A stretch of 26,650 bases of DNA, taken from IMG/VR virus record IMGVR_UViG_3300030385_001328, positions 1 to 26,650 of that record; one strand, given 5' to 3'. The number at the start of each line of letters is the position of its first letter. Within the stretch, counting starts at the first letter, position 1. A program made the translations under genes and the position numbers. The notes beneath the pieces were generated by a model that saw only the letters and a program-made list of their open reading frames with translations, did not search any database and was not told the origin of the DNA. Shown here one piece after another: positions 77-26,579 of this stretch. This DNA is from a virus.

Positions 77-298
77 ATGGAAATATTTTTAATTTCAATC
101 TTAGTTTTTTTTATCTTAAACTTTTTAGGAAAGCAACTTCTTAAAACAATTAAAAAAAATGAAACACAAAAAAGACACCCTTATTTTTTAAAGGATGATA
201 TAGATTACAACTATAAACCAAAATGCAAATGTGATGGCTCAAGGACGAAAAAAATTACCGACAAAATTAAAGAAACTTCAGGGAACACTGAAAGCTGA
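77..298 (+). CDS. Small membrane-anchored protein of unknown function
   Basis: The 73-residue product begins with a hydrophobic helix (about residues 3-20, rich in I, L, V and F), followed by a basic and polar tail with a C-K-C motif near residues 49-51. This looks like a single-pass or anchored membrane protein with a cytoplasmic tail. I recognise no family. The last 65 bases overlap the small terminase gene in another frame, so the C-terminal part is compositionally constrained. The ATG follows an A-rich leader, as in neighbouring genes. It could be spurious. The clean membrane segment followed by a soluble tail argues that it is real. Confidence 0.45.
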   Translation: MEIFLISILVFFILNFLGKQLLKTIKKNETQKRHPYFLKDDIDYNYKPKCKCDGSRTKKITDKIKETSGNTES

Positions 299-710
299 GC
301 GGGTTTTAAACAATGAAATGGAAGTGGCGCTAGTGGTAAATATACCGCCAGCACCGCGCTGGCTTACAAAAATCGCTGCGCAAGAGTGGAAAAATGTTTG
401 CTTTGAATTATTTAATAAACAAATGCTACACAAAATTGACTTGCGATTCATAGAAGCTTACTGCAATGCAATGGCCTTACATATTGAAACGGAAATGATG
501 CTACGCAAAGAAGGGAGAATTCAAGTGTTTAAAAATGCTGATGGCACTATTAAGCACACGCAAAGCACCCCGTATCAAAAAATTGCAAACGATGCACTAG
601 ACAAAGCGTTAAAAATAGCCGCGCAGTTTGGCCTTACTCCGTGCGCCCGCACTAATATAAGCCAGCCAACACTGATCCAAACCAATAATGAATTCAACTT
701 CTTTGAATAA
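234..710 (+). CDS. terS: Terminase small subunit, P27 family
   Basis: The small terminase recognises phage DNA and recruits the large subunit for packaging. The 158-residue product starts MAQGRKKLPTKLKKLQGT, and the basic N-terminus with K-LQGT is typical of P27-family small terminases. A central helical segment follows (about residues 50-100, with AAQEWKNVC), then the usual C-terminal part (KIANDALDKALKIAAQFGLTP). I chose ATG 234 over an in-frame GTG at 231. The 3' end overlaps the large terminase start by 23 bases, the normal terS-terL arrangement. Confidence 0.88.
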   Translation: MAQGRKKLPTKLKKLQGTLKAERVLNNEMEVALVVNIPPAPRWLTKIAAQEWKNVCFELFNKQMLHKIDLRFIEAYCNAMALHIETEMMLRKEGRIQVFKNADGTIKHTQSTPYQKIANDALDKALKIAAQFGLTPCARTNISQPTLIQTNNEFNFFE

Positions 711-8775: not shown

Positions 8776-9213
8776 ATGCCGAGCAATGTATTAAATGGAA
8801 CTAGTATTATCGTGAAAACGGGAGCAGCTGGTGCAGAAACAGAAATTTTGTTTTCCACAAACGCCAGCTTGACGCTGAGTATGGATACAAGAGATATTTC
8901 AAACAAAGGAAGCGCTGGATGGCGCGAATTATTAGAAGCGCAAATGAGTTGGAGCGTATCAACTGAAGGGCTTTTAGCTTTTAAAGATTCTGCTGGCGCA
9001 GCAGTTAAAAACTATGATGATCTAGTTACTGATTTGGTAGCCAGAACAGCTTTTCAAATCATAGTAACGCCATCAACAACTACTTCTGGTGATTACACTT
9101 GGACGGGGCAGTGCTTTATTACAAGCGTAGAACAAAGCCAGCCGCTAGAAGATTCAGCGACTTGGAGTGCTACCTTTGAAGGAACTGGCGCGCTTACGCA
9201 AGCAGTGATTTAA
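8776..9213 (+). CDS. Major tail (tube) protein
   Basis: The 145-residue product fits the TP901-1/phi13-type major tail protein, which stacks in rings to form the tail tube. It shows an N-terminal beta hairpin (GTSIIVKTGAAGAETEILFST), the family-typical middle MDTRDISNKGSAGWRELLEAQMSWSVS, and a C-terminal strand set SATWSATFEGTGALT. Its position before the tail chaperone and tape measure genes is the standard order. It is followed by an 87-base gap with a promoter-like element and a hairpin. Confidence 0.88.
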   Translation: MPSNVLNGTSIIVKTGAAGAETEILFSTNASLTLSMDTRDISNKGSAGWRELLEAQMSWSVSTEGLLAFKDSAGAAVKNYDDLVTDLVARTAFQIIVTPSTTTSGDYTWTGQCFITSVEQSQPLEDSATWSATFEGTGALTQAVI

Positions 9214-9230
9214 TAGTTAGAAAAAAGTTG

Positions 9231-9238
9231 TATATTTG
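9231..9238 (+). promoter_or_regulatory. Promoter -7 element, Bacteroidota type
   Basis: TATATTTG matches the TAnnTTTG -7 consensus of primary promoters in Bacteroidota. It is intergenic, 63 bases before the tail chaperone ATG. The upstream -33 TTG is not clear, so the promoter call is moderate. Confidence 0.45.
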
Positions 9239-9242
9239 GGCG

Positions 9243-9272
9243 GAAATAATTCAGCGAGGGCTTTGTTATTTC
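9243..9272 (+). promoter_or_regulatory. Hairpin at the expected 5' end of the tail transcript
   Basis: GAAATAA (9243-9249) pairs with TTATTTC (9266-9272), and AGC (9253-9255) with GCT (9260-9262) around a GAGG loop. It begins about five bases after the -7 element, so it would form the first structure of an mRNA started there. It could stabilise that mRNA. No T-tract follows, so it is a poor terminator. Confidence 0.4.
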
Positions 9273-9300
9273 TACCTAAATAAACACAAAAATTTTAACT

Positions 9301-9654
9301 ATGTATGAAGTTTTAGAAATTAACAAAAAAAAGCTAGAATGTAAATTTGGATTTAATGCGCTTAGGCGTTTCAGCCGAATTACAAAAATGCCAATTTCCC
9401 AGCTGGAAATTCTAGGGGATAAAATGACGCTTGATGAAGCCGTTATTTTAATTCACTGCGGAATTGCCGATGGCCACCGAGCAGCAAAAAAAGAATTAGA
9501 TTACACTGTGGATGATTTAGCAGATGATCTTGATTTTGATATGGATGCAATAGGGCGCGCGATGGATATTTTTGCCAGCCAAATGGGAAAAGATAGAATG
9601 GCGGGGGGCGACAAAGTAGCTAGCAACAAAAAAAAAGCAAAGCCCAAAAAGTAA
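9301..9654 (+). CDS. Tail assembly chaperone, short form (lambda G-like)
   Basis: The 117-residue product binds tape measure protein and guides tail tube assembly; it is not in the virion. It has an N-terminal beta strand start (MYEVLEINKKKLECKFGFNALRRFSR), a helical core with LDEAVILIHCGIADG and DDLADDLDFDMDAIGRAMDIFASQM, and ends in a lysine-rich tail encoded by an A-run. Position between major tail protein and tape measure is diagnostic. A -1 slip at 9630-9636 extends it into the downstream frame. Confidence 0.8.
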   Translation: MYEVLEINKKKLECKFGFNALRRFSRITKMPISQLEILGDKMTLDEAVILIHCGIADGHRAAKKELDYTVDDLADDLDFDMDAIGRAMDIFASQMGKDRMAGGDKVASNKKKAKPKK

Positions 9655-9977
9655 GGGAAACCACTTTTGACTACTTGGAGGAAATTGCACTAGGACAATT
9701 AAATATGAGCTATGAGCAATTCTACGATATGATACCGCGCACCTTTTATAACGCGCTTGATGGATATATGGCTAAAAGGGAACAGCAAGATAGGAGCGAG
9801 TGGGAACGATGCCGCTGGCAAACTTGCTTGCTATTAAATATCCACTTGCCAAAACGCAGCCAAATACAAAACCCGCAGCGCTTACTGAAATTTGAGTGGG
9901 AAAAACAAATAGGCCAGATGACTAGCTATGCGGAAGAACTTAAAAAAATAGAAACCATCAAAAACAAACATAGATAA
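9624..9977 (+). CDS. Tail assembly chaperone, frameshift extension (lambda T-like)
   Basis: This frame is open from just after a TAG at 9621-9623 to the stop at 9975-9977 and has no ATG near its start. Read through a -1 slip at 9630-9636 it adds about 113 residues to the upstream chaperone, giving a G-T type fusion of about 225 residues. The added part contains ETTFDYLEEIALGQLNMSYE and MIPRTFYNALDGYM, typical of the T domain, and this homology begins before the first possible TTG start (9675). It ends with TAATG overlap onto the tape measure gene. Confidence 0.8.
   Translation, partial: QQKKSKAQKVRETTFDYLEEIALGQLNMSYEQFYDMIPRTFYNALDGYMAKREQQDRSEWERCRWQTCLLLNIHLPKRSQIQNPQRLLKFEWEKQIGQMTSYAEELKKIETIKNKHR
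9630..9636 (+). promoter_or_regulatory. Programmed -1 frameshift site
   Basis: In the frame of the upstream chaperone the sequence reads A-AAA-AAA, a canonical X-XXY-YYZ slippery heptamer within a run of nine A (9628-9636). The two frames overlap only from 9624 to 9654, and this heptamer lies inside that window. I see no strong downstream hairpin. Confidence 0.75.
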
Positions 9978-12808
9978 TGGATGCCGCAATGAATGTAAGA
10001 GTAGGCGCTAAAACGCAGCAATTTGAAAAGGCAATGAAAAGAATGTCTATGCGCGTTAAAAGATTTGGCGGCCAAGTTAAAAAGATGGGTGCTAGTATGA
10101 CGCGGAACTTTACGATGCCGCTGGCTTTGGCGGCCGTAGCTAGTGTAAAATTCGCGCTTGATTTTGAAAAGTCAATGACTAAAATTCAAACGCTGGTAGG
10201 CGTATCGGCTAAGGATGTTGGCGAACTAAAAAAACAAGTGCTGGAATTAGCTGGTAAAACAGCGCAAGCCCCCGTCGAATTAGCTGAGGGGCTTTACTTT
10301 TTAACTAGCGCGGGATTAAGCACTACGGGCGCGATGAAAGCTTTGGCACAAGTTAGTAAGGGCGCAGCTGCGGGCTTAGGCGAACAAGCCGATCTGGCAC
10401 TGGTGGCAGCCGCAGCACAGAACGCTTACGGAGAAGGAACGCTGGATGCCACCGCTGCGCTTGATGGTTTTGGGATGATGGTAAAAACGGGAATGTTTGA
10501 TGCCGCAGAATTATCCAAAGTGTTGGGCGTTCAATTGGGATTGGCTGCTAATTTAGGCGTAAAATTTGATGATGTTGGCGCTTTTATTTCTACCTATACA
10601 AGAACAACTGGTGATGCTACTGGCGCATCTGTTGGCTTTGGGGCGGTTATGATGTCGTTCGCTAAAATTGCACCAGTTCAAGAAAAAGCACTTACTAAAA
10701 TCCATATGAGTGCGGGAAGCTTGCGTGATATGTTAAGTAAAAAAGGACTGCAAAAAACTTTACTTCATTTGCAAACAGAATTCAAAAAGAACGGAATGGA
10801 AATGTCCGAATTCTTTACAAAAAGCAGCGCCTTAAAAGGAGTGATGGGGGTGCTTGGCGAATCTACGGAAAGTTATATAAGTATTTTAGAGCAAATGCAG
10901 ACAAGTCAGGGATTTGTGAATAATGCTTTTGAAGAAACCGCCAAAACAAGCGCCTTTAAAATGGAGCAAGCCCTTAACAGCTTAAAAGTTGCCGCCACTG
11001 ATTTGGGAACTATGCTTTTCCCCGTAGTTCAAAAGATAGCAGCAAAGATAAAATCGCTAACAGATTGGTGGACAGGATTAGATGAAGCGGGCAAGCAAAA
11101 TGTTTTGACTTGGGCGAAGTGGGTTATGTTAGCTGGACCGATGCTTTCGATAGTGGGGAGTATGATTATAAATATTGGAGCACTTATTCCTATTTTAATA
11201 AATGTAGCCAAAGGATTTAAACTGGTGACACTAGCAATGTATGCTAATCCTTATCTTGCAGTGGGGGCGTTAGTGGCGGGATTTATTATTTATATGTCCA
11301 CGCTAGGCAGAAAAACCCGCGAACTAACAAAGGATCAAAAAGCTTTTAATAAAAAGCTAAGAGAAACCAAAGCAATTATGGCACAAGTTGCGGGATTACA
11401 AAAAGAAGTTAAAAATATTGACTTACTTTCAAAAGAACAACGCCAGCAACTTTTATCAAAATTAAAATTACAAAAAGCAGACGCAGCGAATACTCTGAAA
11501 AATATGAAAATATTTGCCAGAGAAAATGCAATGTTTCAGGCCTTAGATCAAACAATATTAAAACTAAAAAAATCCTTAAAAGGAAAAGGATCGCTGGAAC
11601 AAGCAGGAATTTGGCGACAGATAAATAGCTTAACAGAAGAATCCAATAAATTAGTGAAATCAAGATTTGGCGACAGCTTCCAGAATGTAGCAAAAAGAGC
11701 CAATCAATTAGCAAGAGATATTAAAAAAGTTGCTGGATCAATAAGCACTTCCACTTCTGAATTAGCTTCTGATGATCCTACCAGTGAACTTGAAACTGAT
11801 ACATCAACAGCAGAAGCAGAAGCGGCGGCCAAAGCAAAAGAAGAAGCGCTTGCAGCATCGCTAGAAAATATGCGAAAATTAAAGCAAGAATTTAATGTAT
11901 TAACCGCAAAAGATGAACAAGCCGCTGCGCTTATTTCTTTAAATAATGCAGAAACGAACGCTTTGCTAGGCGTAGCTGATACAGAAAATGCAGCCGATGA
12001 AAAACTAGCAATAGAAGAAAACTTTACAGAAAAAAGAAAAAAGCTTTTAGCCGATCAAGCAGCCGACACAAAAAAGAACTTAGATGCGCAAGAAACCGAA
12101 TGGGAAAAAATGTTTTCCAAAATCAGCAAAGGATATAAACAAATTGCTGATGTCGTAAATCAAGTGCTTGGCGCAATAGGTGGAATGCTAAGCGCTGAAG
12201 CTGAAATGGAAAGCGCCTTATTAGAAGAAAAACACGCTACCGAATTGGAAGATTATGATATTTGGCTAGAACGGGAACAAGCAAAATTGGAAGGAACAGT
12301 TGGAAACAAAGCAATAGAAGAAGCGGCACTGGCAGAGCTAGAAAAAAAGGCAGCTGATAAGAAAAAAAAGTTGGAAATGAAGCAAGAACGCGAAGCAAAA
12401 GCCCTAAGAATAAAAGCAGCCAGAAGTGAAAAGAATATGAAAATTGCGAGCGCAATAATGGGAACAGCGCAAGCCGTAGTTAATGCGCTAGGATCTGCTC
12501 CACCGCCCTTCAATTTCTTCTTAGCTGGATTGGTGGGTGCTTTGGGTGCTGCGCAAATATCAATGATTGCAAGCACGCCAATTCCAACAATGGCTCAGGG
12601 AGGATTGGCGATGGGAGATACACTCGCGAGGGTGGGAGATTACGCTGGTGCGCAAAGCAATCCAGAAGTAATAGCCCCGCTTAGCAAATTAACCAGTTTA
12701 CTGGGCGGCAATGGCGCAATGGATATAAATATCACGGGCGAATTAAGCGGCAATGATTTAATATTAACCGAACAGCAAAGCGCGATAAATCGCGCTAGAT
12801 TTGCATAG
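9977..12808 (+). CDS. Tail tape measure protein
   Basis: The longest helical protein of the tail sets tail length and is ejected with DNA. At 943 residues and about 1.5 angstroms per residue, a tail near 140 nm is expected. The N-terminal third is the PhageMin_Tail/TP901 core (KFALDFEKSMTKIQTLVGV, LAEGLYFLTSAGLS). Hydrophobic segments lie near residues 380-445 and 843-865, and long Ala/Glu/Lys coiled coils fill residues 600-830. The C-terminus has PTMAQGGLAMGDTLARVGD, common in tape measures. The start overlaps the chaperone stop by one base. Confidence 0.95.
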   Translation: MDAAMNVRVGAKTQQFEKAMKRMSMRVKRFGGQVKKMGASMTRNFTMPLALAAVASVKFALDFEKSMTKIQTLVGVSAKDVGELKKQVLELAGKTAQAPVELAEGLYFLTSAGLSTTGAMKALAQVSKGAAAGLGEQADLALVAAAAQNAYGEGTLDATAALDGFGMMVKTGMFDAAELSKVLGVQLGLAANLGVKFDDVGAFISTYTRTTGDATGASVGFGAVMMSFAKIAPVQEKALTKIHMSAGSLRDMLSKKGLQKTLLHLQTEFKKNGMEMSEFFTKSSALKGVMGVLGESTESYISILEQMQTSQGFVNNAFEETAKTSAFKMEQALNSLKVAATDLGTMLFPVVQKIAAKIKSLTDWWTGLDEAGKQNVLTWAKWVMLAGPMLSIVGSMIINIGALIPILINVAKGFKLVTLAMYANPYLAVGALVAGFIIYMSTLGRKTRELTKDQKAFNKKLRETKAIMAQVAGLQKEVKNIDLLSKEQRQQLLSKLKLQKADAANTLKNMKIFARENAMFQALDQTILKLKKSLKGKGSLEQAGIWRQINSLTEESNKLVKSRFGDSFQNVAKRANQLARDIKKVAGSISTSTSELASDDPTSELETDTSTAEAEAAAKAKEEALAASLENMRKLKQEFNVLTAKDEQAAALISLNNAETNALLGVADTENAADEKLAIEENFTEKRKKLLADQAADTKKNLDAQETEWEKMFSKISKGYKQIADVVNQVLGAIGGMLSAEAEMESALLEEKHATELEDYDIWLEREQAKLEGTVGNKAIEEAALAELEKKAADKKKKLEMKQEREAKALRIKAARSEKNMKIASAIMGTAQAVVNALGSAPPPFNFFLAGLVGALGAAQISMIASTPIPTMAQGGLAMGDTLARVGDYAGAQSNPEVIAPLSKLTSLLGGNGAMDINITGELSGNDLILTEQQSAINRARFA

Positions 12809-18318: not shown

Positions 18319-18693
18319 ATGAAAGCAACAAAACAAACAGCAAGCGGAACATCTTTTCACGGTGTTACAATCAAAACAAGGCCAATAGATTTAATCAGTT
18401 TGGCAAACAAATTAGGAGCAGAATATTACGATTCTAATGATGGCAATGATAAATGTAATTTCGATTTTGAATTTGAAACTTCAAAAGGAGATGTTTTTAC
18501 TATTTACGATTGGAAGAAATACCGCGTTTTAGAAGAAGATGAAAAAGTTATTTTTAACATTGGGGCAGCTGATCGTAGTATTTCGCAAACCGCTGCGCAG
18601 GAATTAAAATTAACTATAATAGAAACCGAAAAAAAATCAAAATTCAAACAAGCGGGAGAAAGCGCGGGTTTTGATATGCGCGGAATAAACTAA
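18319..18693 (+). CDS. Hypothetical early protein sharing a C-terminal motif with the gene at 19188
   Basis: The 124-residue product is acidic in its middle (YYDSNDGNDKCNFDFEFETSKGDVFTIYDWKKY), likely beta-rich, then has FNIGAADRSISQTAAQELKLTIIE. The last part, AAQELKLTIIE, recurs as AARELKLTIIE in the protein at 19188-19448, and the DNA encoding it is nearly identical (31 of 32 bases). Function is unknown; small early proteins often modify host processes. The leader AACAAAGAAA before the ATG is shared with the 19188 gene. Confidence 0.75.
   Translation: MKATKQTASGTSFHGVTIKTRPIDLISLANKLGAEYYDSNDGNDKCNFDFEFETSKGDVFTIYDWKKYRVLEEDEKVIFNIGAADRSISQTAAQELKLTIIETEKKSKFKQAGESAGFDMRGIN
18592..18623 (+). 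repeat. 32-bp intragenic repeat, copy 1
   Basis: This starts GCTGCGCAGGAATTAAAATT and differs from 19353-19384 at one position. It encodes AAQELKLTIIE. The flanking DNA is not similar between the two genes, so the repeat has sharp borders. Confidence 0.75.
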
Positions 18694-18700
18694 AAACAAT

Positions 18701-18745
18701 AACGGCAAAAGCCCCAGCCAACTAATAAGGGCAAACAAAACAATG
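18701..18745 (+). repeat. Start-associated leader repeat, copy 1
   Basis: This 45-base unit runs from AACGGCAAAAGCCCCAGCC through AACTAATAAGGGC to the ATG of the next gene (18743-18745). It is identical to 19457-19501 and differs by one base from 19694-19738. GGC-AAAA-GCC can form a small hairpin, and GCCC could instead pair with the later GGGC. It begins just after the stop of the upstream gene. Confidence 0.85.
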
Positions 18746-19187: not shown

Positions 19188-19448
19188 ATGACAAGATTTG
19201 CAAAGCACACACAAAATTTAAAACGAGAAGGAAACTTTATTATTTCCTATTCTACAAAAGTAGCTGAAATAATTGGCAGCGAATTACACAAATTGGATTG
19301 GAATGTAGATGGCAAAACAAGCAGCCCGACAACTACTAGGCATATTAACTATGCTGCGCGGGAATTAAAATTAACTATAATAGAGCCAAAATTAGCTACT
19401 GATTATGGCTGTGAATACGGGGATATAAATGGATACCCAAATTTATAA
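19188..19448 (+). CDS. Hypothetical early protein with HINYAARELKL motif
   Basis: The 86-residue product has a strand-rich N-terminal half (GNFIISYSTKVAEIIGSEL), then SSPTTTRHINYAARELKLTIIE. Small proteins with a T-T-x-H-I-N-Y-A-x-E-L motif are, as I recall, widespread in marine phages without known function. The C-terminal motif is shared with the gene at 18319. The start follows a stable hairpin and an A-rich leader. Confidence 0.75.
   Translation: MTRFAKHTQNLKREGNFIISYSTKVAEIIGSELHKLDWNVDGKTSSPTTTRHINYAARELKLTIIEPKLATDYGCEYGDINGYPNL
19353..19384 (+). repeat. 32-bp intragenic repeat, copy 2
   Basis: This matches 18592-18623 at 31 of 32 positions (A to G at base 8). It encodes AARELKLTIIE in the same reading frame as copy 1. 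Confidence 0.75.
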
Positions 19449-19456
19449 AAACAACT

Positions 19457-19501
19457 AACGGCAAAAGCCCCAGCCAACTAATAAGGGCAAACAAAACAAT
19501 G
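19457..19501 (+). repeat. Start-associated leader repeat, copy 2
   Basis: This 45-base copy is identical to 18701-18745 and ends in the ATG of the next gene (19499-19501). It begins nine bases after the upstream stop codon. Confidence 0.85.
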
Positions 19502-19687
19502 GGAACACTACAAGAACAAAGAACACTGCTAAGAATTAAAGATTTAAAATCAGCTGCAACACTTGATGCAGAAGAAACAGCCAAAGAAAAAAAGCGTGAA
19601 GAAATGAAAAAAGCGCTGCAAGTATTACAGAAACTAGCGATGGATAAAAACTTTCAGGGCTGGATAAATAAAATAGCAAATAAATAA
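19499..19687 (+). CDS. Small charged helical protein behind leader repeat 2
   Basis: The 62-residue product is almost entirely helical and highly charged (ETAKEKKREEMKKALQVLQKLAMDK), ending NFQGWINKIANK. It could be a coiled-coil partner protein. I recognise no family. The start codon is fixed by the leader repeat, and the stop is six bases before the next repeat copy. Confidence 0.68.
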   Translation: MGTLQEQRTLLRIKDLKSAATLDAEETAKEKKREEMKKALQVLQKLAMDKNFQGWINKIANK

Positions 19688-19693
19688 AACAAT

Positions 19694-19738
19694 AACGGCA
19701 AAAGCCCCAGCCAACTAATAAGGGCAAACAAAATAATG
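19694..19738 (+). repeat. Start-associated leader repeat, copy 3
   Basis: This 45-base copy differs from copies 1 and 2 at one base (T for C three bases before the ATG). It ends in the ATG of the next gene (19736-19738). Confidence 0.85.
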
Positions 19739-19929: not shown

Positions 19930-20241
19930 ATGGAAATGACTATACAAAGCACGCGCGTATTTACTGCGCTCAATGATTTAGCAACTAAATGGGAACGCGA
20001 TTTAGAGCAGCTAAAAAAACGGGAAAAGGAACTTAAAAAAAAGGACGATCAGCTTACAAGCTTGGCTGTTTCAATGGTGGCCGATAATACCTTAGAGCAT
20101 ATCATAGCCATACGGCAAGCCATAAGCGATTTACAACGCTTAGATGAACACGAAAAAACAATAACGAACAAACTGCTTGAAACTATGTTAAATCAAACCA
20201 ATTCTATTAACTTTAAAAAACCAAAAAAAGATGATAATTAA
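19930..20241 (+). CDS. Coiled-coil protein upstream of the SSB-like gene
   Basis: The 103-residue product has a long heptad-like region (WERDLEQLKKREKELKKKDDQ), then another helix (EHIIAIRQAISDLQRLDEHEKTITNKLLETML), and a basic end KKPKKDD. It should be an elongated helical protein, perhaps an oligomeric partner in replication. No named family is recognised. Its 3' end overlaps the SSB-like gene by 11 bases, suggesting coupled expression. Confidence 0.7.
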   Translation: MEMTIQSTRVFTALNDLATKWERDLEQLKKREKELKKKDDQLTSLAVSMVADNTLEHIIAIRQAISDLQRLDEHEKTITNKLLETMLNQTNSINFKKPKKDDN

Positions 20242-20707
20242 AACCAGCAAAGTAGTAAGCGTGCAATTCCTTAAAACTTGGGAAAGCCGCAAAGGAGATA
20301 CATTTTACGCACACCAAATCCAAATGGAAAACGGGGATTGCGGGGAATATTCCAGCAAAACAGAACAGCAAACCAAGTTTGTTGAAGGAGAACAAACGGA
20401 ATACGAATACCATCCGCACGACAGCTTCCCAAAAATAAAGCCGCACTATGCGCGGCCGCAATTTACGGGCAATGCTATGCAGAACGAAAATACAATGATT
20501 CCAAGCGTAGCAATAAAAGCAAGCGCTGTATTTAATGCGGGGCGTAGCGCCACTGCGCAGCAAGTTGTAAAAGACGCAAGAGTTTTTGCCGCTTTTATTA
20601 ACGAACAGCCAGCCGAAACCGCACCGCCAGCTAAAACCATTGCACAGTTAAAAAAAGATGATAGCCCTGAAATTGTAATTACGGATTCCGAAGACTCCCC
20701 TTTTTAA
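20231..20707 (+). CDS. Putative single-stranded DNA-binding protein
   Basis: The 158-residue product has the outline of an SSB. It has an N-terminal beta-rich region of about 65 residues (KVVSVQFLKTWESRKGDTFY, then IQMENGDCGEYSSKTEQQ), which could be a compact OB fold. A low-complexity linker with many Ala, Pro and Gln follows, and the acidic tail ends DSEDSPF, like the DxPF tip that SSBs use to recruit replication proteins. The next gene is a DnaA-like DNA-binding protein. The call rests on the tail and context, not on a clear family match. Confidence 0.6.
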   Translation: MIIKTSKVVSVQFLKTWESRKGDTFYAHQIQMENGDCGEYSSKTEQQTKFVEGEQTEYEYHPHDSFPKIKPHYARPQFTGNAMQNENTMIPSVAIKASAVFNAGRSATAQQVVKDARVFAAFINEQPAETAPPAKTIAQLKKDDSPEIVITDSEDSPF

Positions 20708-21097
20708 ATGGAAAACACTATACTAAAAGCGAAGCTTATTTTAGCGCAGATGTTTGGTATTGGTGTATCGCACTTTGCAAAACATAAAAGCCGAAAAAAA
20801 AATGTTATTGAAGCACGCAGATTTTTGATTTATTTTTTGCGTAAGGAATTGAAAATAACTTTTGTGGAAATTTGCAAATACATTCCCGCACTAACAAACC
20901 ACGCCACAGCAATACACCACTATAAAAGGATGAAGGAGCTGCAAACAGTTGAAGCGCCAATCCAACGCAAATACGAGGAATTTAAGAACACCCTTTTAAG
21001 TGATGAAACGCTATCTATCCAGCGTGAAATAATTGGCTTGGCAAATATGCGCACCCACTTATCCACACAAATAAACCAACTAAAAAAACTGTTATGA
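20708..21097 (+). CDS. DnaA domain IV-like DNA-binding protein
   Basis: The 129-residue product carries a region (about 28-80) like the C-terminal DNA-binding domain of DnaA: SRKKNVIEARRFLIYFLRKE, then TFVEICKYIP and the signature-like NHATAIHHYKRMKEL (compare DHTTVLHA in bacterial DnaA). It lacks the AAA+ ATPase domain. It may bind DnaA boxes to open the phage origin or titrate host sites. A perfect DnaA box lies in its own 3' end. The start directly abuts the SSB-like stop, and the stop overlaps the next ATG. Confidence 0.75.
   Translation: MENTILKAKLILAQMFGIGVSHFAKHKSRKKNVIEARRFLIYFLRKELKITFVEICKYIPALTNHATAIHHYKRMKELQTVEAPIQRKYEEFKNTLLSDETLSIQREIIGLANMRTHLSTQINQLKKLL
21059..21067 (+). other. 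Consensus DnaA box inside the DnaA-like gene
   Basis: TTATCCACA is a perfect match to the bacterial DnaA box. It lies in codons for H-L-S-T of the DnaA domain IV-like protein, near its 3' end. It is the only perfect copy I noticed by eye. It may mark part of a replication origin. Confidence 0.5.
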
Positions 21098-21369
21098 AAT
21101 TACAAATTACAAGTTTCAAGAATACGCCTAGCAAATACGGGGGATTTTTTTACTATGTATTTTTTAAGGACGATGCTGGCAAAAATTACAAAAGCTGCAT
21201 CTATCCAAATTGTAGGAACTTTAATAAGTGGCGCAGTGTTTTAAAACGCGGTGCTGTCTTGGATAATTTAATACTAAAAAGTGCGGGCTTAGTTGATGCC
21301 GATAGCAATTTTACTTTTTTAGGTATTAAGCAAAGCAAGCCAAAACCGCACCAGCCAAAACTATTTTGA
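21094..21369 (+). CDS. Small beta-rich hypothetical protein in the replication cluster
   Basis: The 91-residue product is beta-rich (KYGGFFYYVFFKDDAGKNY), then SCIYPNCRNFNKWRSVLKRG and a lysine/proline tail. The layout of short strands with a glycine turn is compatible with a small OB-like fold, so a nucleic-acid role is possible. The two cysteines in SCIYPNC do not form a standard zinc site. It is coupled by ATGA overlap to the DnaA-like gene. Confidence 0.68.
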   Translation: MKLQITSFKNTPSKYGGFFYYVFFKDDAGKNYKSCIYPNCRNFNKWRSVLKRGAVLDNLILKSAGLVDADSNFTFLGIKQSKPKPHQPKLF

Positions 21370-21370
21370 T

Positions 21371-21643
21371 ATGAAATTATTTGAAGATGATTTTGGTATT
21401 GATACCAGCGCACCAGATGCAACTGAAATAACTACAACGATTCTTTATTTTAGCAAAGAAGAAATGAAACTATTTAAACAGCTTTGCAAAAAAGGAATGC
21501 AAAAGGAAATGCTAAATTTAAGCACTGCAAATATATCCGATTTTTTATTACTAATATTAAAACAAAAATATGAGAATTTACAAATTAAAGAAACACCTGA
21601 CAGCAAGCCAATCAGCGAAACTCAAGGGAACTTTTTTGGATGA
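21371..21643 (+). CDS. Small hypothetical protein overlapping the TET/JBP gene
   Basis: The 90-residue product has an acidic N-terminus (LFEDDFGIDTSAPD), a helical middle (FSKEEMKLFKQLCKKGMQK, then ANISDFLLLILKQKYENL) and a polar tail. I recognise no family. The helical middle looks like a ribbon-helix-helix or small DNA-associated domain, but no motif decides it. Its last 74 bases overlap the dioxygenase gene in another frame, an unusually long overlap, suggesting that the two are linked. Confidence 0.65.
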   Translation: MKLFEDDFGIDTSAPDATEITTTILYFSKEEMKLFKQLCKKGMQKEMLNLSTANISDFLLLILKQKYENLQIKETPDSKPISETQGNFFG

Positions 21644-22433
21644 TAATAGTTATGATTTTATAATAGATCACGATGCTGATGGGTTTGATTTATACGGGAA
21701 TTTATTATTTAGATTTCGCAAAGGTGCTTTGCCTTATAATGTATTAAAGAACGGATATGATAGTTTTAAGGACAGCATAGAACTGACTGAGGGGCGCGGT
21801 ATAGCCAGCGGGAGCAGCCACAAAAGAATCTTAAAAGATGGAACAGTAAGTAAAATAACTGTGGGAAATAAAGTGCTAAGCGGGAATGTAGGTTTTATGG
21901 ATAGAAATTCAATGATACATTATTGCCGAAAAACCGCCTTTGCACGCAGATATTTTGATAAGTTTAAAGCTGGAATTCCTTTTGTAGAATTTATAGATAA
22001 AAAATATCAAGAACTTTGCCCCGCTTTTTATAAAAAACAAAAGGCCATTGCAGCTGGCACAAATAGAAACTATGTAATAGGAGACACCAGCTTTACAACC
22101 ATAACAGTAAACAAGAATTTTAGAACTGCGGTGCATAAGGACAGCGGTGATTTTGGTGAGGGATTTGGAAACCTTATTGTCTATCGCGAGGGGGATGTAA
22201 AGGGTGGCCTTTTTGTTTTGCCAGAATATAGGGTGGCCGTAGATATGCAGAACTGCGATATTCTTTTTGTTGATGTGCATAAATGGCACGGCAATACTGA
22301 AATCATTACCAGCTTGCAAAGCTTCCGCGTCGCTTTTGTTTTATATTATCGGGAATATATGTATAAATGCAAGCAACCGCGTGAAGAATTGCAAAGTGTA
22401 AAAATTAACAAAACTGGATATCTAACATTATGA
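21570..22433 (+). CDS. TET/JBP-family 2-oxoglutarate/Fe(II) DNA dioxygenase
   Basis: This enzyme should oxidise the methyl group of a 5-methylpyrimidine in DNA (5-methylcytosine or thymine) to hydroxymethyl, using Fe(II) and 2-oxoglutarate. The 287-residue product shows the TET/JBP pattern: an N-terminal FRKGALP and GRGIASG (75-81), then the iron-binding HxD in AVHKDSGD (H189, D191), the strand GGLFVLPEYRV, the distal His in DVHKWHGNT (H240), and the 2-oxoglutarate-binding Arg in SFRVAFVLYY (R253). Its stop overlaps the glycosyltransferase start (ATGA). ATG 21570 lies inside the upstream gene; no later ATG precedes the conserved core. Confidence 0.9.
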   Translation: MRIYKLKKHLTASQSAKLKGTFLDDNSYDFIIDHDADGFDLYGNLLFRFRKGALPYNVLKNGYDSFKDSIELTEGRGIASGSSHKRILKDGTVSKITVGNKVLSGNVGFMDRNSMIHYCRKTAFARRYFDKFKAGIPFVEFIDKKYQELCPAFYKKQKAIAAGTNRNYVIGDTSFTTITVNKNFRTAVHKDSGDFGEGFGNLIVYREGDVKGGLFVLPEYRVAVDMQNCDILFVDVHKWHGNTEIITSLQSFRVAFVLYYREYMYKCKQPREELQSVKINKTGYLTL

Positions 22434-23245
22434 AAATATTTATTTTTACTTACGATAGATTCAATGAAATAACAACTAGCAGATATTTTGCTCAGCAAGA
22501 TCATTTTGTTTTGTGCCATTCAAAACACGCAAAAGATAAATTCTTACAAAGTGGAAATATTTTTGGAGAAATTATTGCAACTGAAAATCCAAAAGGGCTA
22601 AGCTATAATAGAAACGCGGCACTTGATATGATGCAACCAAATGAATGGGCGCTATTTTTTGTAGATGATTTAATTAAACTTACAATTCTGCAAAGTTATT
22701 ACAAGCAACCAACAAATGAGCTAGATATTGATTTTGACAATGTTCCTAAATATAGGGAAGAATTTAAGACAGAATGTAGTGCAGCTTCTTTTTTACAACT
22801 ATGCCAAGAAACTATATTACACGCAGAAAAAAAAGGTTTTAATTTATGCGGTTTTAGCTTAACAGATAACCCACTTTTTAGAGCCAAGAAATATGGATAT
22901 TGGAGTTTATCAGATGGGCGGTGCTGGCTAATTAAAAAAACGCACTTACGATTTGATGAGAATATACAGCTTATAGATGATACTTGTTTTACCGCAATGA
23001 ACTTAAAAGAATTCGGTGGAGTTGTGAATAATAATTGGATATTGCCGAATTGCCAAAGATACACCGCTGGGGCTTTTGGTAGTATAAAGAAACGATTAGA
23101 ACAAAAGATAAAAGAATGTAAATATCTTACAGAAAAATATCCGCAATTTATTTCTTATGCTGAAAAAAGCGGTTGGCCACTTGGCTCTCATATTAAGATA
23201 AGGCAAAACAGAACATATAATAAAAATCAAAAAACTTTATTCTAA
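22430..23245 (+). CDS. TET-associated glycosyltransferase (TAGT-like, GT-A fold)
   Basis: The 271-residue product looks like the glycosyltransferases found next to phage TET/JBP enzymes. It begins with a GT-A type strand (MKIFIFTYDRF), has GLSYNRNAALDMM (56-68) and the metal/sugar-nucleotide site FFVDDLIKL (D79, D80). Later come the acceptor-side pattern WLIKKTHLRFDENIQLIDDT (D183, D184) and NLKEFGGVVNN. It should transfer a sugar to the hydroxymethyl base made by the neighbouring dioxygenase. The sugar cannot be read from the sequence. It is coupled to the dioxygenase by ATGA and to the replication initiator by TAATG. Confidence 0.82.
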   Translation: MKIFIFTYDRFNEITTSRYFAQQDHFVLCHSKHAKDKFLQSGNIFGEIIATENPKGLSYNRNAALDMMQPNEWALFFVDDLIKLTILQSYYKQPTNELDIDFDNVPKYREEFKTECSAASFLQLCQETILHAEKKGFNLCGFSLTDNPLFRAKKYGYWSLSDGRCWLIKKTHLRFDENIQLIDDTCFTAMNLKEFGGVVNNNWILPNCQRYTAGAFGSIKKRLEQKIKECKYLTEKYPQFISYAEKSGWPLGSHIKIRQNRTYNKNQKTLF

Positions 23246-23907
23246 TGCAAGTTTTCCGCGTAATAAAGAATAAGAATTACACTACTATTTGCAATGGTAT
23301 TTATAAAGACAAAGGCCTAAGCTTAAAAGCAAAAGGTTTATTAAGTATGATTTTGAGTTTACCAGCTGGCTGGGATTTAACTATTAACGGGCTGGCAAAA
23401 ATATGCAAAGAAGGAAAGCGCGCCCTTAATTCAACAGCCGCAGAACTTATTGCAGCGGGTTATATAACGCGCCAGCAAGTGCGGGAGAATGGAAGCTTTG
23501 CTGGTTATGATTACTGCGTCTATGAACAGCCGCAATGCTTAAACGCGCAAACGCAAGACGCGCAAACGCAACAAAGCAACCAATTAAGTAATAAAGAAAT
23601 AAATACCTTATCTAATAAAGATAATATAAATATATTAGCTTTTAGAAAAATGAAATTTGGAACAGAAGTAAGCCAACTAAGTGCAGAAAATGGGATGGAT
23701 ATAAATGAAGCAAATAAGTTCCTAGATTACTGGACGGAAACCAATAACAGCGGAAAAAAAATGCTGTTTGAAATGCAGCGAACTTTTGATATTAATCTGC
23801 GCCTTAAACGCTGGGCGGCTAACAATAAAAACTGGAATAATAAAGGGCGTTCTAAATTAGAAGCGCAGCTTAGTGAATACAATAAAGGAAAAGAACTATT
23901 AAAATGA
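23245..23907 (+). CDS. Winged-helix replication initiator (DnaD/replisome organizer-like)
   Basis: The 220-residue product starts MQVFRVIKNKNYTTICNGIY, followed by KGLSLKAKGLLSMILSLPAGW and GLAKICKEGKRALNSTAAEL, the standard winged-helix start of phage replisome organizers. A Gln/Asn-rich linker (about 100-130) follows, then a C-terminal part NEANKFLDYWTETNNSGKKM with LRLKRWAANNKNW, typical of these proteins. It should bind the phage origin and recruit a helicase loader. The start overlaps the glycosyltransferase stop, and its stop overlaps the next gene. Confidence 0.82.
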   Translation: MQVFRVIKNKNYTTICNGIYKDKGLSLKAKGLLSMILSLPAGWDLTINGLAKICKEGKRALNSTAAELIAAGYITRQQVRENGSFAGYDYCVYEQPQCLNAQTQDAQTQQSNQLSNKEINTLSNKDNINILAFRKMKFGTEVSQLSAENGMDINEANKFLDYWTETNNSGKKMLFEMQRTFDINLRLKRWAANNKNWNNKGRSKLEAQLSEYNKGKELLK

Positions 23908-26240: not shown

Positions 26241-26579
26241 ATGCCAACCTTCCCAAAGAAAAAAAAACGCCCGTGGATTCCCACACGCCAGCCCGCACCA
26301 ATAGGAAACACCAGCAGAAGCAAAACACCGAGTGATATCATTAAGTTTTATAATAGTAAACGCTGGCGCAGTTTAAGGGGCTACTACTTACAAATGAATC
26401 CGCTGTGTGAAATGTGTAAACGGGCTGGCTATATTACACCAGCCGAGGAGATAGATCACCGCACGCCAATAAGATTGGGAGGAAACCGCACCACACTGGA
26501 CAACCTTCAAAGCTTGTGCAAGCCGTGCCACGCCCGCAAAAGCGGACGCGAAGCCCATAGCTACAAAAATAAAAAATAA
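26241..26579 (+). CDS. HNH endonuclease, packaging-associated type
   Basis: The 112-residue product has a basic N-terminus (PTFPKKKKRPWIPTRQPAP), then YNSKRWRSLRGYYLQMNPLC. The zinc-binding cysteines are in LCEMC (C56, C59) and LCKPC (C93, C96). The catalytic motif is EIDHRTPIRLGG (D72, H73), N88 in DNLQ, and H97 in CHARKSG. HNH proteins of this size next to terminase genes assist cos cleavage in HK97-like phages. Here it ends 71 bases before the window edge, while terS is at the other edge. Confidence 0.9.
   Translation: MPTFPKKKKRPWIPTRQPAPIGNTSRSKTPSDIIKFYNSKRWRSLRGYYLQMNPLCEMCKRAGYITPAEEIDHRTPIRLGGNRTTLDNLQSLCKPCHARKSGREAHSYKNKK

Follow-up and report, generated by a model that had tools for sequence, protein, structure and literature searches.

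How a phage could place hypermodified bases on its own freshly copied DNA, and on which base, is the question raised by two overlapping genes in a 26,650-nucleotide stretch of viral DNA (IMG/VR record IMGVR_UViG_3300030385_001328), which is referred to here, in its entirety, as the window. The original prediction, made from the letters alone, was that the pair encodes a TET/JBP dioxygenase and a TET-associated glycosyltransferase (TAGT) that modify the phage's own DNA. Both family assignments held, and the prediction missed a C-terminal tag of the clamp-binding type on the glycosyltransferase. The reading we prefer, at a probability of roughly 0.6, is that the TET would hydroxylate thymine and that a TAGT tethered to the host sliding clamp would glycosylate the product, giving a post-replicative, base-J-like mark. 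The pairing of phage TETs with glycosyltransferases and the clamp contact of T4 alpha-GT are already known; what appears new here is the clamp tagging, which recurs across many related viruses and is barely described, and the thymine assignment. In a partial literature search, no paper described clamp motifs as something that base-modifying enzymes of phages generally share. Such tags would provide a directly testable answer to how phages limit base hypermodification to the DNA that they have just copied. The features concerned are the following.

231-710, plus strand: terminase small subunit (TerS) at the left end (PF05119, 4.3e-18; PHROG 83).
21094-21369, plus strand: 91-aa open reading frame (ORF) with the C-terminus HQPKLF; no window protein besides this one and the glycosyltransferase has a QxxLF end.
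21371-21643, plus strand: small ORF of 90 aa overlapping the TET start (homologue cluster, 31 loci).
21570-22433, plus strand: TET/JBP-family 2OG-Fe(II) dioxygenase, 287 aa (Pfam Tet_JBP, residues, model).
22430-23245, plus strand: divergent TET-associated GT-A glycosyltransferase (TAGT), 271 aa (PHROG 842, profile links, fold).
23228-23242, plus strand: QKTLF codons at the glycosyltransferase C-terminus, a beta-clamp-binding-type motif (conservation, consensus).
23245-23907, plus strand: replication-initiation-like HTH protein (PHROG 428, 3.3e-18).
26241-26579, plus strand: HNH endonuclease at the right end (PF01844, 1.1e-11).

Profile searches recognised terminase, portal, protease, capsid and tail genes in the window. 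The ends of two independent contigs from related phages (27,367 and 28,489 bases) almost coincide with those of the window, lying just before the small terminase gene on the left and just after the HNH endonuclease gene on the right. Because these three co-terminal contigs show a cos-phage layout, with TerS at the left and HNH at the right, the window is probably an entire linear cos genome. Its host would be a marine Bacteroidota, since one relative is the Nonlabens phage P12024L and the only relative in a genome scan lies on a contig of a Winogradskyella metagenome-assembled genome; with that single contig there is therefore no prophage context. The phage would also depend on the host replisome, because no polymerase gene was recognised in the window and a profile search found no beta clamp (PF00712) there. 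The N6/N4 methyltransferase family PF01555 is likewise absent from the window. Short repeats at about 18689-18745, 19446-19501 and 19686-19733 match several places in a related contig; they lie between early genes and may have a regulatory or promoter role.

The first gene of the pair matches Pfam Tet_JBP (PF12851) at E 8.2e-19 and 67.9 bits, against a curated cut-off of 34.9. The residues named in the prediction, H189, D191, H240 and R253, sit where it placed them; they form an HxD...H iron triad and a 2OG-binding arginine, are invariant in 36 aligned relatives and persist in T4-like phage homologues that are about 30-40% identical. The predicted structure (pLDDT 80, pTM 0.81) has human TET2 as its best match (Z 20.6 over 249 residues, rmsd 3.3); CMD1, Naegleria TET1 and CcTet come next, and AlkB-type enzymes score clearly below these. 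This TET-type fold, together with the above-cut-off match, bears out the TET/JBP assignment. Searching the PDB with single sequences returned no relative of either protein, and the TET profile picked up TET2 weakly. Both predicted ORFs were recovered at their coordinates (287 and 271 aa), and they share an ATGA at 22430-22433; the two had been called fused, which they are not, being separate overlapping ORFs. Such an overlap suggests that TET and TAGT are probably translationally coupled.

The glycosyltransferase is far more divergent. It matches PHROG 842 at E 2.7e-6, and the L023 homologue, at 3.7e-8 over its length, adds to the TAGT profile evidence; PHROG 842, the T2/T6 beta-glucosyl-HMC-alpha-glucosyltransferase, was equated with Pfam TAGT in a 2026 paper (PMC13216743). 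Against Pfam TAGT itself (PF20691) the window copy reaches 13.6 bits (E 0.063), under the cut-off of 27.5. Relatives in the same slot exceed that cut-off, the P12024L counterpart at E 4e-21, and intermediate sequences bridge the window protein to it. The model (pLDDT 83.5) matches GT-A/GT2 folds at Z 13-14.6, and R10, R61, N62, D79, D80 and D184 are invariant in an alignment of 32 sequences, with D79, D80 and D184 as the acidic metal/nucleotide motif. The TAGT assignment is secure because same-slot counterparts match TAGT and the fold is GT-A; profile search and structure prediction thus left neither protein outside its predicted family. The GT-B enzymes T4 alpha-GT and beta-GT were considered as relatives and ruled out by the GT-A fold. 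Direct searches of annotated phages and viral contigs returned no close relatives, because the sequence is so divergent, and relatives were gathered through synteny with TET; about 190 related loci were compared in all. A TAGT-profile gene is present in 57 of 82 unique TET loci, which with the profile matches puts the pair beyond chance. That the pairing is conserved supports the view that the phage modifies its own DNA, and we hold it very probable that the two proteins are a TET/JBP and a TAGT acting on DNA.

Base J in kinetoplastids is made by JBP1/JBP2 and a glucosyltransferase, thymine being hydroxylated in DNA and then glycosylated. The window cassette shares this two-step logic and the dioxygenase superfamily; it differs in belonging to a prokaryotic virus, in using a TAGT-family glycosyltransferase, in having no J-binding domain that we could see and in that thymine is a putative substrate here. 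In the first step, the dioxygenase, with its family and catalytic residues in place, would act on a pyrimidine of the phage DNA and hydroxylate its 5-methyl group, the likeliest reaction being thymine to 5-hydroxymethyluracil (5hmU). The TAGT, judged by family and fold, would then add a sugar to the hydroxymethyl group, yielding a base-J-like glycosylated hydroxymethyluracil. The beta-glucosyl-HMC-alpha-glucosyltransferase of T6, also a TAGT, belongs to the same GT-A family, but its acceptor is glucosyl-5hmC, whereas the acceptor here is probably the bare hydroxymethyl base. In the third step, QKTLF would dock the glycosyltransferase on the host beta sliding clamp, and new phage DNA would be coated near or behind the fork. 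The likely benefit would be resistance to DNA-targeting host defences.

The choice of base has a competing reading. The same cassette could instead act on 5-methylcytosine (5mC) supplied by a host or unrecognised phage methyltransferase, giving glycosylated 5hmC at a methylated motif. Characterised phage TETs, in work by Burke et al. (PNAS, 2021), reportedly act on 5mC and co-occur with C5-methyltransferases. The same association has been summarised elsewhere (PMC12730594). The closest solved structures to the window TET model are 5mC enzymes, D194 sits at the position of TET2 N1387 and would also suit cytosine, and some relatives carry a C5-methyltransferase near the cassette, which in L006, L068 and L083 is a short version with a QxxLF tail of its own. 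Against this, no C5-methyltransferase (PF00145) was found in the apparently complete window or in the complete P12024L, HTVC112P, DLP6, Cr30 and C48C1, and the co-terminal contigs make a methyltransferase encoded beyond the window unlikely. Among 85 related records, 10 carry such a gene and 75, many of them fragments, do not; the 80 long-TET loci described below gave no match to a home-made C5 profile, a weaker test than Pfam.

The partners of TET point the same way. TAGT alone accompanies it in 57 loci and a P-loop kinase and/or an amino-acid:DNA transferase (ADDT, PF18724; matches at E 5e-18 to 6e-25) in 34, with both in 1 and neither in 13, an exclusivity with a Fisher P of 9e-16 as computed over related loci. 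The two decorations alternate on one TET family, which suggests that they are probably placed on the same hydroxymethyl base, most simply 5hmU. Lee et al. are said to have described in 2022 the role of ADDT on 5-hydroxymethyluracil in DNA. Kinase/ADDT-type enzymes use 5hmdU, or 5-hydroxymethyluracil in DNA, in known systems (PMC6449724), and the Rhodococcus phage Tonitrus is annotated with a TET-like protein and a 5-hmU kinase (PMC11955845). ViI, M6, phiW-14 and Tonitrus are thymidine hypermodification systems, to which the P-loop kinase and ADDT of the cassette's relatives form a parallel; ViI, M6 and phiW-14 take 5hmdU from the nucleotide pool (PMC6449724), whereas the hydroxymethyl group here would arise on DNA through TET. 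Hydroxymethylation at the nucleotide level was rejected for the window, which has no thymidylate-synthase-type hydroxymethylase (PF00303). Burke-type cytosine hypermodification clusters of TET, C5-methyltransferase and glycosyltransferase are similar in placing TET beside glycosyltransferases and in modifying DNA after replication, but the window lacks the C5-methyltransferase, the alternative partners among its relatives are 5hmU-type kinase/ADDT, and clamp-type C-terminal tags are present.

Because a C5-methyltransferase is missing and kinase/ADDT are the alternative partners, we favour thymine over 5mC with moderate confidence, and regard the 5mC version as rather unlikely. The position of TET2 H1904 is occupied by an invariant arginine (R261) in the window TET, a change in the base pocket; as a discriminator between 5mC and thymine this position was discarded, with arginine found in every readable phage TET, with or without a C5-methyltransferase. 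Known phage TETs favour GpC sites. GpC is strongly over-represented over the window (positions 1-26650; 1.79 relative to expectation, CpG 1.05), and this lack of depletion is weak evidence against 5mC; dinucleotide composition was otherwise uninformative on the base. Should thymine be the base, phages possess a pathway resembling that of base J, and dioxygenases for thymine in DNA can be drawn from this TET clade.

The window glycosyltransferase terminates in NKNQKTLF. In the alignment of 32 glycosyltransferases, the most distant at 14% identity, only ten columns are invariant, Q267 and F271 among them, and L270 is nearly so, the entropy of the tag columns being near 0 against an average of 1.5; in the model this tail has low confidence (pLDDT 51-57). 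The bacterial beta-clamp-binding consensus is a C-terminal QL(S/D)LF (PMC9690074), of which QKTLF keeps Q, L and F and lacks the leucine at the second position. Flavobacterial Pol IV ends in QLKFxF or similar, a host counterpart of the tag. In the window's family, QxxLF ends 59 of 61 TAGTs and 17 of 18 P-loop kinases, as well as a radical-SAM/SPASM protein and some DNA methyltransferases near TET, and LxxFF ends none; TET itself never carries QxxLF (0/75). The tag as a part of the glycosyltransferase fold was ruled out, as unrelated folds carry it and TAGTs elsewhere either lack it (PTm1, phiAS5, two Vibrio phages and locus L117) or end in LxxFF. Over 78 unique loci of this family, the 1.7 kb downstream of TET hold 251 complete ORFs, 107 of which end in Q..[LIM]F; of 982 other ORFs 4 do, three of these four being DNA methyltransferases. 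Counting by protein family gives 6/33 versus 3/243 (P about 1e-4), a fairer comparison, since the loci share ancestry and the locus-level P is inflated.

A search with distant TETs added 80 loci with long TETs, related to the T4-like phages DLP6, Cr30 and C48C1; DLP6 and Cr30 have annotated sliding clamps of their own. In this group LxxFF ends 69 of 71 unique TETs and all TAGTs (14/14), and none has QxxLF. Its B-family DNA polymerases also lack QxxLF and end strictly in LxxFF in 12 of 14 cases, the other two in IEDFF. The polymerase tails of C48C1 and DLP6 are ATLEDFFG and ATLDSFFA, and the corresponding TET tails SLEEFFV and TLGDFFV. Kinases of the long-TET loci have no clamp-type tail (0/32). 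Since gp43 and gp55 are established gp45 clients, the DNA polymerase serves as a positive control for the LxxFF tail. Both gp55 and gp33 have been described as gp45 clients (PMC9690074). T4 alpha-GT also binds gp45, although alpha-glucosylation in T4 is not governed chiefly by that contact (PMC13216743). That enzyme is thus a clamp-binding DNA glucosyltransferase, but of the GT-B type and on the phage's own gp45, while the window motif is of the host beta-clamp type.

These patterns make it likely that the window glycosyltransferase is tethered to a sliding clamp by its tail. They also bear on the idea that QxxLF and LxxFF tails dock some other partner, for example another cassette enzyme, with modification uncoupled from replication. 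In favour of this idea, motifs so short and linear are sometimes misleading, the enzymes that bear tags cluster in one cassette, and tag enrichment was measured over related loci. We nevertheless consider such docking improbable: QxxLF fits the beta-clamp consensus, the tag type follows the phage's own clamp, the DNA polymerase of gp45-type phages has the same tail, and DNA methyltransferases outside the cassette are tagged too. The clamp reading may extend to TETs, glycosyltransferases, kinases, amino-acid transferases and methyltransferases, with QxxLF directed to the host beta clamp and LxxFF to gp45. We give about even odds to the general proposition that unrelated hypermodification enzymes gained clamp tags independently, of a type matched to the phage's replisome, and that the TET clade makes 5-hydroxymethyluracil. 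The C-terminal tag is, moreover, a simple marker by which unknown DNA-modifying enzymes of phages can be picked out from sequence. That the targets of the two enzymes are RNA, nucleosides or a surface glycan is highly improbable, for although GT2 enzymes mostly act on glycans, the best Foldseek match of the glycosyltransferase (AvpGT) was crystallised with the nucleoside Ara-A, and the dioxygenase has a weaker PHROG match annotated as queuine tRNA-ribosyltransferase, the folds nearest to the dioxygenase are DNA-acting TETs, the cassette partners modify DNA and replication-clamp-type tails suit DNA.

Several neighbouring genes deserve mention. Homologues of the 90-aa ORF at 21371-21643, 71-90 aa long, immediately precede TET in almost every relative; it has no Pfam or PHROG match, and its product is a candidate accessory protein. 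A 129-aa protein (20708-21097) just ahead of the cassette matches the HTH-like C-terminal domain of DnaA (PF08299) at 2.3e-6, which is under the cut-off. A 158-aa protein (20231-20707) is a possible phage SSB, since its end, ITDSEDSPF, looks like the acidic tip at the C-terminus of single-stranded-DNA-binding proteins.

Among the relatives, N6/N4 or short C5 methyltransferases ending in QxxLF occur at L035 18039-18674, L022 9900-11093, L009 1917-2546, L006 5767-6438, L068 1883-2536 and L083 1954-2595. A 151-aa protein lies between TET and the glycosyltransferase in L008 (2652-3107), with homologues in about 39 loci; it has a GxEIKND motif, PD-(D/E)XK-like by eye, and mostly ends in QxxLF or a near variant. 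In L123, a GNAT acetyltransferase (1310-1951; PF00583, 1.4e-6) beside a long TET and ADDT ends in NTLESFF, like the polymerases, and may acetylate the added amino acid. In the closest relative, L002, whose TET is 85% identical, two proteins stand in place of TAGT (8861-10739), one of the radical-SAM/SPASM type and one of 309 aa that has no Pfam match; both end in QxxLF, and the pair is possibly a new type of base decoration.
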